64,000 nt of DNA from Candidatus Paraprochloron terpiosi LD05 (GTDB lineage: Bacteria; Cyanobacteriota; Cyanobacteriia; Cyanobacteriales; Prochloraceae). The translations under genes and the position numbers were made by a program. The stretch spans positions 2,527,422-2,591,421 of the forward strand of contig CP073341.1 of the NCBI GenBank assembly GCA_018141785.1, in the 5' to 3' direction. The notes below the pieces were generated by a model, which saw only the letters and a program-made list of their open reading frames with translations, was not told the origin of the DNA and made no database searches. Of this stretch, positions 53,495 to 57,066 are shown in pieces; within the stretch, counting starts at the first letter, position 1; the number at the start of each line of letters is the position of its first letter.

Positions 53495-54151
53495 TCAAAG
53501 GACTATATCTTCTTGAAAAGTCTCATTGAAAAAAATCTTCTCGTTCTGGAAACGTCCACCGTATTGTTTCAGGGGTTCCGTTGCATACCCCAGGGGGAGT
53601 AAACAGCAAACATCTACCTCAGGGGGAATCTTAAATGCTTCCTTAACCTGAGCAGTTACAAACCCTTCCATAGGACAACTATCCACTCCCAAACTTTGGG
53701 CTACAATCATAATCTGGGCTACTGCTAGCATAGTATGACGGTTAGTCCAAGCTTCTCTTGACTCAAAGCAAGGATGATGTTGGAATAATTGGGGAATAGC
53801 AGAACGCATATAATTGGCATATTTATCATTCATCGCTCCTGCTTCTTGCCCCAATTGAATCACATCTTCGATATAATCAGGGTTATTCACTCGGCGATCG
53901 CCACAACAAATCAAAACCACAGGTGCTTCTGTAATCTGACGCTGATCAAAAGCACAAACTCTCAGTTTCTGCTTATTCTCTTCTTTCCTTACCACAATAA
54001 AACGCCAAGGTTGTAAGTTAAACCCGGAGGGTGCGAGTACCCCAAGACGGAAAATTTCTGCTAGAATATCCTCAGGAATAGGATCCAAGCTAAAAGAGCG
54101 AGCAGCTCGTCTTTGTTCAATTGCTTCTTTTACCGACAGTTCCTTTATCAT
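53495..54151 (-). CDS. Nitroreductase family protein
   Basis: A 218-residue FMN-dependent oxidoreductase, usually a cytoplasmic homodimer. Seen: the FMN-binding start AIEQRRAARSFSLDPIPED, GVLAPSGFNLQPWRFIVVR and, near the C-terminus, VDSCPMEGFVTAQVKEAF with LPLGYATEP. These match the nitroreductase (NfsA/NfnB/NfsB-like) superfamily; natural substrate unknown. It lies 14 bases downstream of the thioredoxin-like gene on the same strand, so they may be co-transcribed. Confidence 0.87.
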   Translation of the reverse strand: MIKELSVKEAIEQRRAARSFSLDPIPEDILAEIFRLGVLAPSGFNLQPWRFIVVRKEENKQKLRVCAFDQRQITEAPVVLICCGDRRVNNPDYIEDVIQLGQEAGAMNDKYANYMRSAIPQLFQHHPCFESREAWTNRHTMLAVAQIMIVAQSLGVDSCPMEGFVTAQVKEAFKIPPEVDVCCLLPLGYATEPLKQYGGRFQNEKIFFNETFQEDIVL

Positions 54152-54165
54152 CTGCTTTCCTTGTT

Positions 54166-54621
54166 TTATACTTCTGGGATAAGACGTTGTAAATTTTGAA
54201 CGAGCACCCTTTCCGGGACGTTCCCCAACAAAGTCTGTTCCACAGCACCTCCTGGTTGGAGTAAAGTAATTTGGGGTAACCCACTCACCCCATACTGCTG
54301 CACTTGTTCCTGGAATTGGACATCGTCTACATTTATCATAACAAAGTTTATATTACTGTGTTGGTTATGTAATTTATTTAAAGTAGGAGCCATCCATTGA
54401 CAAGCATTACACCAGTCAGCATAGAATTCTAGGAGAGTGGGCTTCCCATTAGTCAAAGCCACTTCATAGGAAACCGACTGTTGCGCCATAGTCCTTAAGG
54501 TTGCCAACCCACTTACCGAACTGCTGGTTATGGGATTAACATCAGTCCGAGTAGTGACAAAAACCCCAGCTACCAAGACTAAAACAATAACTGCTCCTAA
54601 CAAGGATCTAACTTTAGTCAT
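54166..54621 (-). CDS. Membrane-anchored thioredoxin-like protein (TxlA/HCF164-like)
   Basis: 151 residues. The N-terminal membrane anchor LLGAVIVLVLVAGVFVTT (residues 7-24) is followed by a thioredoxin domain with EFYADWCNACQWMAPTLNKL, so the active site is WCNAC (CxxC). The cis-Pro region is SGLPQITLL. Such proteins face the lumen or periplasm and reduce cytochrome assembly factors in cyanobacteria and chloroplasts. It lies between the nitroreductase and globin genes on the same strand. Confidence 0.85.
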   Translation of the reverse strand: MTKVRSLLGAVIVLVLVAGVFVTTRTDVNPITSSSVSGLATLRTMAQQSVSYEVALTNGKPTLLEFYADWCNACQWMAPTLNKLHNQHSNINFVMINVDDVQFQEQVQQYGVSGLPQITLLQPGGAVEQTLLGNVPERVLVQNLQRLIPEV

Positions 54622-54690
54622 TTTTTTTACTCATCCCAATAATTTAGTAACTCTATCATAATCTTACCACACTCTATGAGGTGTGAAATC

Positions 54691-55266
54691 CTATAAAAGA
54701 AGCAAGAGAATGATTATCAACCCCGCTACCCCAAATATACCGCCAAGAATTGGCCCATTAATGTTATCCTTGGCTGGTTCCGCTTTGTGGTCCTGGGTTG
54801 GAGATACTTGAGAGGTTGACCGTTTTTCTCCCGGTGCTTCTAATTTCACTATTTCACCATCATACTCAGCACCTGCTAACATCATAGCGGTAATGTCAGT
54901 GTAAGCACCCACCCAAGCTTGTTTGACCTCCCTAGTCCACTCTTCCCCTAGGTACTGCTCAAAAGTAGTAAAAAGAGCATCGCCTACCAGAGGGTAATGT
55001 TCTCGTAAAGCGCCATATTGGACATGACGGGATCCCAGTTGTTGGAGGGTATCGATTAAGTTTTGTGGATAGTGGAGATTAAAGACTACCAGCATCAACA
55101 TATTCATCAACTTTTCTTGTTGCGCCTTCATATCTGTTTCGGCAAACAGCGGCGCTACTTCAGGGTACGCTTTAAAGAGATTTTGATAGAAACTGGCGGC
55201 AAATTCAGGAGCGCGGGGTTTGACTTTGGCAAAGCTTTCTTCTATCAGTTGGATAGAATCGGACAT
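54691..55266 (-). CDS. Globin-family protein with C-terminal membrane anchor
   Basis: 191 residues. Residues 1-135 form a single-domain globin similar to flavohaemoglobin/Vitreoscilla-type globins: IEESFAKVKPRAPEFAASFY, LFKAYPEVAPLFAETDMKAQ, then the proximal-His segment LGSRHVQYGALREHY. A charged, Pro/Lys-rich linker (GEKRSTSQVSPTQDHKAEPA) follows, and the last 22 residues (GPILGGIFGVAGLIIILLLL) are a membrane span. The combination is unusual, because bacterial single-domain globins are normally soluble. Possible roles are oxygen or NO handling at a membrane; heme binding is inferred from the His. Confidence 0.82.
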   Translation of the reverse strand: MSDSIQLIEESFAKVKPRAPEFAASFYQNLFKAYPEVAPLFAETDMKAQQEKLMNMLMLVVFNLHYPQNLIDTLQQLGSRHVQYGALREHYPLVGDALFTTFEQYLGEEWTREVKQAWVGAYTDITAMMLAGAEYDGEIVKLEAPGEKRSTSQVSPTQDHKAEPAKDNINGPILGGIFGVAGLIIILLLLL

Positions 55267-55320
55267 GATTTACGTTGCACTTGTAAATGATACCATGTAT
55301 TGTAGTTGGAATATAAAATC

Positions 55321-57066
55321 ATGGCAAAATCCCGATTAGCAAAATTAGGAACTTACCTCCGCCCTCACTGGCGGCAAGTTGGACTGGGTATCTTAGCCCT
55401 ATCCTTAGTTAATGGTCTCGTTGTCTACATACCCTTGTTGATTCGGGATATTGTGGATAAACTGGGGGAAGGTTTTACATTACATCAGCTATCCAAATAT
55501 GGATTATTTATCCTCCTTTTAGCTTCCCTAATGTGGGTAATTCGGATGTTATCCCGAATCTTTATCTTTGGAGTAGGACGTCAGGTAGAATTCGACCTGA
55601 AACAAAATATTTTCCAACATCTCCTGACTCTAGAACCATCCTATTTTGCCATCAATACCTCTGGGGACTTAATGAACCGAGCCACCAGTGATGTGGACAA
55701 TATTCGCCGCTTGCTGGGGTTTGCAATTCTGAGCATCATCAATATTATCTTTGCCTATGGCTTTACTATACCATCAATGTTAGCCATAAACGTGCGCCTC
55801 AGCTCTATCGCCCTCATGGTTTACCCCCTAATGCTAATAGTAGTGCAATTATTCGGGGGTAAGTTACGGGACTACCAAAAAGATGTCCAGGAGAAACTCT
55901 CGGATCTGAGCGAGTTGGTGCGGGAAGACGTGAGTGGGATAGCTTTAATTAAAATTTATGCCCAAGAAGAAAACGAAAGGCAGCAGTTTGCCAAAAAAAA
56001 TCGCCAATTGTTGGGAGCTAATTTAAAACTAGCGAAAACCAGATACATTCTTTTTCCCATAGTGGAAGGTTTAGCTAATCTCAGTTTGCCCATTTTACTC
56101 TGGTTAGGTTCAGGAGCCATCGCCCAAGGTGCCATGACCATTGGGGATTTTGTTGCTTTAGTTATCTTAGTGCAAAATTTAGCCTTCCCTACCGCTCTCT
56201 TAGGTTTTACCATTACTGCTTATCAAAGAGGGGAAGTGAGTATTGATCGGACCGAAGCTATTCTCAATGCCGAAGCTAAAGTTAAGAATACCCCAGGGGC
56301 CATATCCTTGCCAGGAAAGATAAAAGGTAACCTGGAAGCGCGGAACCTGAGTTATACCTATCCTGGAGCTTCAAAACCAGCTCTCAACAACCTCAACTTC
56401 ACTATTAAAGCAGGAGAAACGGTGGCTATAGTGGGAACCATTGGTTCCGGGAAGTCCACCCTCGCTAATGCTATCCCTCGTTTGCTGGATCTGGAAGAAG
56501 GACAGTTGTTTTTGGATGATTATGACGTAACCCAACTGCGACTACAAGACTTACGTCAGGCGATCGCCTACGTTCCCCAAGACAGCTTCCTCTTCAGTAC
56601 CACCATTAAAAATAACATCCGCTATGGGGAACCATTAATGGAACAACGGGAGGTAGAACATGCTGCCAAACTAGCCCAAATTCACCCGGAAATTCTCAAT
56701 TTCCCCCAGCAATATGAGACTCTAATAGGGGAAAGAGGGATTACTCTTTCTGGAGGACAGCGTCAGCGCACCTCTTTAGGGAGAGCATTATTAGTAGATT
56801 CTCCTTTGTTGATTCTCGACGACGCTCTTTCCAGTGTAGATAATCAAACAGCTACAGAGATTTTGCGCAATCTTTCTTCTGGAGTGGAAAGTCGGACAGT
56901 GATTTTTATCTCCCACCAAATGTCTGCTGCTTCTACCGCAGACAGGATTTTGGTAATGGATCAGGGTAAAATTGTTCAAAGTGGCACTCATGAGGAATTA
57001 TTGCAAGCACCAGGTTTATATCAATCTCTTTGGCAGCAACATCAGCTAAAAGAGATATTGCCTTAG
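55321..57066 (+). CDS. ABC exporter, fused permease/ATPase (MsbA/MDR-like)
   Basis: 581 residues from ATG 55321 (MAKSRLAKLG). Six membrane spans cover about residues 20-300, followed by an ABC domain: Walker A VGTIGSGKST near residue 380, signature TLSGGQRQRTSLGRALL, Walker B PLLILDDALSSVD and H-loop FISHQMSAAS. The ATG 15 bases upstream (55306) is possible. It is a homodimeric exporter of lipids or drugs by family; substrate unknown. It is divergent from the globin gene across 54 bases. Confidence 0.93.
   Translation: MAKSRLAKLGTYLRPHWRQVGLGILALSLVNGLVVYIPLLIRDIVDKLGEGFTLHQLSKYGLFILLLASLMWVIRMLSRIFIFGVGRQVEFDLKQNIFQHLLTLEPSYFAINTSGDLMNRATSDVDNIRRLLGFAILSIINIIFAYGFTIPSMLAINVRLSSIALMVYPLMLIVVQLFGGKLRDYQKDVQEKLSDLSELVREDVSGIALIKIYAQEENERQQFAKKNRQLLGANLKLAKTRYILFPIVEGLANLSLPILLWLGSGAIAQGAMTIGDFVALVILVQNLAFPTALLGFTITAYQRGEVSIDRTEAILNAEAKVKNTPGAISLPGKIKGNLEARNLSYTYPGASKPALNNLNFTIKAGETVAIVGTIGSGKSTLANAIPRLLDLEEGQLFLDDYDVTQLRLQDLRQAIAYVPQDSFLFSTTIKNNIRYGEPLMEQREVEHAAKLAQIHPEILNFPQQYETLIGERGITLSGGQRQRTSLGRALLVDSPLLILDDALSSVDNQTATEILRNLSSGVESRTVIFISHQMSAASTADRILVMDQGKIVQSGTHEELLQAPGLYQSLWQQHQLKEILP

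Follow-up and report, generated by a model that had tools for sequence, protein, structure and literature searches.

The window, a stretch of 64,000 nucleotides from Candidatus Paraprochloron terpiosi LD05, carries on its reverse strand a globin gene followed by genes for a membrane thioredoxin and a nitroreductase-family protein, with an ABC transporter gene diverging from them. The features at this locus are as follows.

54691..55266, minus strand: globin gene with a predicted tail anchor, 3-over-3 fold, 191 aa (Pfam, PDB search, AlphaFold2, Foldseek)
54865..55266, minus strand: globin core, residues 1-134 (Pfam, solved relatives, pocket residues)
54763..54864, minus strand: charged, probably disordered linker, residues 135-168 (sequence, model, dN/dS of 0.86 against the locus L002)
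54694..54762, minus strand: Gly-rich hydrophobic tail anchor, residues 169-191 (hydropathy, related tails)
54622..54690, no strand: 69-bp junction, at which relatives have pentaheme, hexaheme, Tll0287 and b-type cytochrome genes (locus comparison)
54166..54621, minus strand: membrane thioredoxin of the cluster type, with an N-terminal anchor and a WCNAC site (Pfam, tree)
53495..54151, minus strand: nitroreductase-family protein (profile match; a neighbour in the window and L002 only)
55306..57066, plus strand: divergent ABC transporter, a syntenic anchor common to L002 and contig C50 of the genome G386 (locus comparison)

The gap between the globin and thioredoxin genes is 69 bp, and that between the thioredoxin and nitroreductase genes is 14 bp. 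The initial annotation had placed the latter two downstream of the globin on the same strand, and both were found there, at 54166-54621 and 53495-54151.

The globin ORF (54691-55266, minus strand) starts with ATG and encodes 191 residues, and residues 25-129 matched Pfam Globin (PF00042) with 59 bits at a cut-off of 22. A PF00042 search of the window genome (G000; 3,839,796 bases in a single contig) returned this globin as its one match, truncated globins belonging to a different Pfam family outside the search. The closest solved relative by sequence was Hell's Gate globin I (3s1i, E 2.8e-27), and HGbRL (3wfw) and Vitreoscilla hemoglobin (VHb; 1vhb, E 8e-14) were also recovered. The single-sequence AlphaFold2 model reached a modest mean pLDDT of 66.3, with the globin helices present, low confidence at residues 134-177 and a helix at residues 178-190, and Foldseek ranked 3s1i first for this model (E 3.0e-7). 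The pocket residues are Y27 (B10), F41 (CD1), Q49 (E7), L53 (E11) and H81 (F8), the helix labels being partly our own assumption; this pocket and the fold are common to Hell's Gate globin I, HGbRL and VHb. A failure to bind heme, which the initial annotation named as one way in which its reading could fall, is not what the intact pocket residues suggest. By every sequence test made, the protein belongs to a known family and is a single-domain 3-over-3 globin of the flavohemoglobin/VHb lineage. It has a globin domain related to that of the flavohemoglobin Hmp, an NO dioxygenase (NF009805, 71.9 bits), but unlike Hmp it carries no FAD/NAD reductase domain; the match covers positions 6-137 of the 399 in the profile, whose cut-off is 432.

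The C-terminal membrane anchor proposed by the initial annotation was borne out by sequence and hydropathy. The core is followed by a charged linker and a single hydrophobic segment at the extreme C-terminus, without an N-terminal signal, which predicts a tail anchor. The final 19 residues have a mean Kyte-Doolittle value of 2.96, and no residue follows the segment. For comparison we took the mechanical ORFs of the window and eight other loci that span 150 codons or more, and required a 19-mer of at least 2.0 no more than two residues from the end. Seven of 168 ORFs ended in a comparable segment; three of these were globins, and three were b-type cytochromes of the gene cluster treated later. 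Gly-rich tails similar to that of the window globin are also present on related globins. Together, the 168-ORF comparison and the similar tails on relatives rule out chance as the origin of the tail, as well as the degraded reading frame against which the initial annotation had cautioned.

The same place was then compared within the genus. At L002, also from Candidatus Paraprochloron terpiosi, the divergent ABC transporter, globin, thioredoxin and nitroreductase genes are arranged as in the window; L002 appears to be identical to contig C57 of the 71% complete genome G387, with equal coordinates. In the congener genome G386 (5.7 Mb), contig C50 encodes the ABC transporter and an anchored globin of 211 residues and breaks off within the start of a second globin. 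Contig C51 opens with a globin end bearing its own tail (read by eye); next come the pentaheme, hexaheme, Tll0287-type and b-type cytochrome genes, and after them the thioredoxin gene. We infer that C50 and C51 are linked from their consecutive numbering and matching globin ends. The window globin groups with the G386 globin on the tree with split support (99 bootstrap, 52 SH-aLRT), and its nearest relatives are cluster-head globins at the same genomic place, the ABC flank being common with G386. The nitroreductase gene was seen only in the window and L002 and was not found on C51, which holds the cluster thioredoxin.

None of the four G386 cytochrome genes had a tblastn match (E <= 0.1) in the window, in L002 or in L168 and L169, two further stretches of the window genome. 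The genome-wide search, made with the pentaheme query, gave no match in the window genome at E <= 0.1, whereas G386 matched at 5.4e-109. The sole Tll0287-family match in the window genome was missed by the cluster query at 1e-5, and by this criterion the protein is not of the cluster type. These comparisons suggest that the genes between the globin and the thioredoxin have probably gone from the window lineage, and that the two genes are adjacent because the genes between them are missing. Since the pentaheme gene is absent from the locus and unmatched in the genome, the window globin would be a remnant rather than a working member of a cluster.

In its full form, the cluster runs from a gene for a globin or polyglobin, often anchored, through genes for a pentaheme c protein, a hexaheme c protein, a Tll0287-type c-heme protein and a b-type membrane cytochrome, often to a thioredoxin gene. 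The pentaheme query matched 41 of 388 genomes of the order (39 strongly) and 4 of 386 genomes across the phylum (three strongly); matches near 1e-3 in G187 and G407 were counted as chance. With the addition of G170 there were 40 cluster loci from ten families, nine of the order and one of another order in the class, and all 40 were examined. Two of them begin inside the pentaheme gene, and upstream DNA is visible in the other 38. Where the contig includes the upstream ORF (37 loci), a globin gene always lay directly before the pentaheme gene; counting the globin C-terminus at the G386 contig start (read by eye), this makes 38 of 38. The gap between the two genes was at most 41 nt in 31 of the 37 and never more than 359 nt.

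The 37 complete head globins contained one domain (21 proteins), two (13), three, four or five (one protein each). A C-terminal hydrophobic segment followed by 0-1 residue was present on 26 of them (27 of 38 with G386), including all 16 multi-domain heads. The remaining 11, all single-domain, had no tail, indicating that globins can associate with the cluster without an anchor. The view that bacterial single-domain globins are usually soluble, put forward in the initial annotation, is fair in general, but on the head globins here an anchor is common. A tree was built from 101 globin domains that belong to 72 proteins and span 115 aa or more, leaving out L002 (stop codon), the duplicates L001, L003, L004, L011 and L015, and the broken L030 and L031. 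Domains from one protein often grouped together, so domain number seems to change repeatedly. The pocket was conserved across these 101 domains, with Tyr B10, Gln E7, Leu E11 and His F8 each in 100 and Phe CD1 in 101.

Of the 40 pentaheme ORFs, 37 carried four CXXCH motifs and one CX4CH motif and three were cut by contig ends; all 39 hexaheme ORFs had six CXXCH motifs, and all 39 Tll0287-type ORFs had one. The Tll0287-type copy in G360 matched PF11845 at 67.3 bits, and in this domain and its one CXXCH motif it resembles stand-alone Tll0287 or sCache_heme proteins. A preprint (PMC12889525), in which the word globin does not appear, describes such stand-alone proteins as isolated proteins with redox roles and reserves NO sensing for those fused to signalling modules. 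Four His residues of the b-type ORFs reached 95% conservation or more across 38 rows. They form two HX13H pairs (in the alignment of 7 of 10 rows tried), which we take to be the pattern of diheme membrane b cytochromes. Pfam matches of the b-type proteins were weak and below cut-off (DUF4405 in 6 of 7, best E 7.8e-4; Ni_hydr_CYTB in 5 of 7, best E 0.017), and PDB searches with the pentaheme and b-type profiles gave no usable match. For the hexaheme protein there were weak leads to an HAO-like protein (6h5l, E 6.6e-8 over part of the chain) and to eight-heme nitrite reductases (about 2e-4), and the decaheme families DmsE and GSU2203 matched under their cut-offs, also as weak leads. One of seven b-type members, that of G386 (L119 2720-3631, plus strand), has an N-terminal extension of about 100 residues with weak winged-helix matches (MarR_2, Penicillinase_R).

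Genes of System II cytochrome c maturation (ResB/Ccs1, CcsB/CcsA and a ResA/HCF164/TxlA-type thioredoxin) have counterparts near the clusters. ResB was found at 22 of the 40 loci and a CcsB-like gene at 19, along with Rieske (11) and pentapeptide-repeat (26) genes, many regions ending early; at 23 of 38 loci a same-strand thioredoxin gene came no more than 3 kb after the b-type gene, some contigs here too ending early. Unlike the usual System II genes, this set is divergent, paralogous and tied to the globin-cytochrome cluster, and the cluster CcsB-like protein scored 149.8 bits, under the cut-off of 187.6. The window thioredoxin matched PF00085 at 68.7 bits, has a CxxC site (WCNAC) and a hydrophobic N-terminus that predicts a membrane anchor, and groups with the G386 cluster thioredoxin (97/97), outside the clade formed by the usual TxlA rows (100/100). 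G000, G386 and G387 yielded no TxlA of the usual type. Both the usual and the cluster type of CcsB occur in G360, G213 and G170, only the usual type in G131, G005 and G229, and only the cluster type in G000 and G386; neither was found in G387, which is 71% complete. ResB, CcsB and Rieske genes are kept together elsewhere in the window genome.

On this sequence evidence, the most likely role of the window thioredoxin is in cytochrome c maturation, as an apocytochrome c thiol reductant acting with ResB-CcsB, and the protein probably lies on the side of the membrane opposite the globin. A TxlA-like protein is lumen-labelled in Synechococcus 7002 (PMC7880944). Neither the usual TxlA nor the usual CcsA seems to be present in the Paraprochloron genus, and the cluster maturation set has probably become its only one. 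The thioredoxin would have been retained when the cytochromes went because the usual TxlA and CcsA are not found in the genus. As a direct partner of the window globin, the thioredoxin was rejected on the cluster gene order and the thioredoxin tree.

We consider it reasonably probable (about 0.6) that the window gene is the tail-anchored head-type globin of a cytochrome cluster whose cytochromes have since been lost, and that complete clusters wire the globin as an O2/NO-reactive site. By established topology rules, a C-terminal anchor without a signal peptide implies a cytosolic domain, and c-type hemes are attached outside the cytoplasm. The globin would be cytosolic because it has such an anchor and no signal peptide, and its tail would hold the globin heme or hemes at the cytosolic face of the membrane. 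The b cytochrome would bridge the membrane, passing electrons between the globins and the multiheme chain on its extracytoplasmic, periplasmic or lumenal side, so that the globin would form a wired, re-reducible O2/NO-reactive site kept ferrous by the heme chain. It would most likely act as an NO dioxygenase (O2-dependent NO removal) or as an O2/NO scavenger. We infer the direction of electron flow, the membrane side of the globin, its contact with the partner and the NO or O2 substrate from topology and gene order. The globin of the window lineage would have lost this wiring, and the thioredoxin would have been kept with ResB-CcsB for cytochrome c maturation. The initial annotation is borne out in its membrane anchor and redox setting, the more so as related anchored globins head a multiheme cluster, and is not supported in its trio of globin, thioredoxin and nitroreductase.

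An extended version of this reading can be offered only tentatively. In it, one to five globins on one tail anchor would be reduced via a diheme b cytochrome by a 12-heme chain (5 + 6 + 1), with a maturation set and Rieske protein of their own, together forming a heme-wired transmembrane hemoglobin machine whose task at the membrane would be NO dioxygenation or the scavenging of O2/NO. The window would be its stripped end state, with the maturation set turned to housekeeping.

Whether the window globin still functions bears directly on its place in this scheme, and it could well be a decaying remnant without remaining function, at somewhat less than even odds. Between the window and L002, dN/dS was 0.53 for the globin, above its neighbours (thioredoxin 0.40, nitroreductase 0.24, ABC transporter 0.11); codon 91 of the L002 globin is TAA, and the window branch on the globin tree is long (0.66 vs 0.41 for G386). 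Against this, the window ORF is intact with all heme-pocket residues present, and the L002 stop may be an error of the MAG. By part, dN/dS was 0.37 in the core, below 1, 0.86 in the linker and 1.82 in the tail, the last on only six nucleotide differences, and the tail is still hydrophobic. These values suggest that the window globin is under relaxed constraint, possibly in early decay, and it may be vestigial.

For the complete clusters, a regulatory or sensing globin, which would bind O2 or NO at the cytosolic face and gate the cytochrome chain by contact rather than accept electrons, seems unlikely. Sensory use does exist among related globins, since some sit at the C-terminal end of cyclase-type signalling proteins and others are fused to pentapeptide-repeat membrane proteins. 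However, cluster-head globins carry no output domain, one to five globin domains per anchor fit capacity better than gating, and the Tyr B10/Gln E7 pocket (labels as qualified above) resembles those of NO-dioxygenating and of O2-binding globins. We regard as quite improbable a role in membrane O2 storage or delivery like that of VHb, with the cytochrome genes merely co-regulated under low O2. The homology to VHb and Hell's Gate globin I and the gain in O2 capacity from concatenated domains agree with it, as does lipid binding by HGb-I, reported in PMC11203436, yet it leaves unexplained both why a globin lies directly 5' of the pentaheme gene at all 38 loci and why a diheme-pattern membrane cytochrome belongs to the same cluster. 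A single membrane redox unit made up of the globin, the membrane thioredoxin and the nitroreductase, as their common strand, short gaps and repeated order in L002 had suggested, is very improbable, given the four cytochrome genes between globin and thioredoxin in relatives, the G386 contig with the cluster thioredoxin and no nitroreductase, the thioredoxins near ResB/CcsB and the lumen-labelled TxlA-like homologue in another cyanobacterium.

The wired-globin reading takes as its working idea a globin with an electron supply, as in Hmp; unlike in Hmp, the reductase proposed for the cluster globins is a membrane heme chain in trans, not a flavin domain. Hell's Gate globin I, HGbRL and VHb differ from the window globin, which is tail-anchored and whose relatives have one to five tandem domains and head a multiheme cluster. 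Membrane-bound globins are reportedly also found in animals, namely the N-myristoylated globin of C. elegans and globin X of fish, both acylated (PMC3520999, PMC3176823). These are likewise held at the membrane, but they are lipid-modified rather than tail-anchored and have no cytochrome cluster. Among open-licence PMC papers, we found no description of the globin tail anchor, the concatenation or the fixed place before a multiheme relay, and no named counterpart of the whole globin-cytochrome cluster. The cluster may explain how simple bacterial hemoglobins are supplied with electrons, and the multiheme relay behind anchored, concatenated globins is a concrete candidate donor that is open to knockout and reconstitution. 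The genus offers a natural experiment: the relay is apparently retained in one species but lost from others, and a specialised set of genes for cytochrome c maturation seems to have taken the place of the usual set.

Several other globins were seen in the survey. Pentapeptide-repeat globins (L005, L007, L008, L009, L013, L014, L016, L017, L019, L020 and L022) are proteins of about 470-680 residues with one or two globin domains and hydrophobic segments, mostly from one or two families and outside the cytochrome cluster. The window globin was rejected as one of these, their rows falling outside its set on the tree, where deep forks are weakly supported. In L027, L028 and L029, the globin domain is C-terminal on cyclase-type signalling proteins. 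A second globin type of about 176-184 aa, with a C-terminal motif near GELTFYEWLDLYGES, follows the b-type gene at five loci (L038 5830-6360, minus strand; L124; L128; L134; L140); in the L038 copy, B10 is His and E7 is Met. At L153 (4901-5512, minus strand), the first 60 or so globin residues are in frame with a Rieske protein, either as a globin remnant or as a fusion within the cluster. Finally, about 6 kb beyond the window (L169 5963-8213, on G000 contig C1), a sensor-like ORF of the Tll0287 family stops beside an opposite-strand ORF that resembles a group II intron reverse transcriptase, and the sensor may be interrupted.
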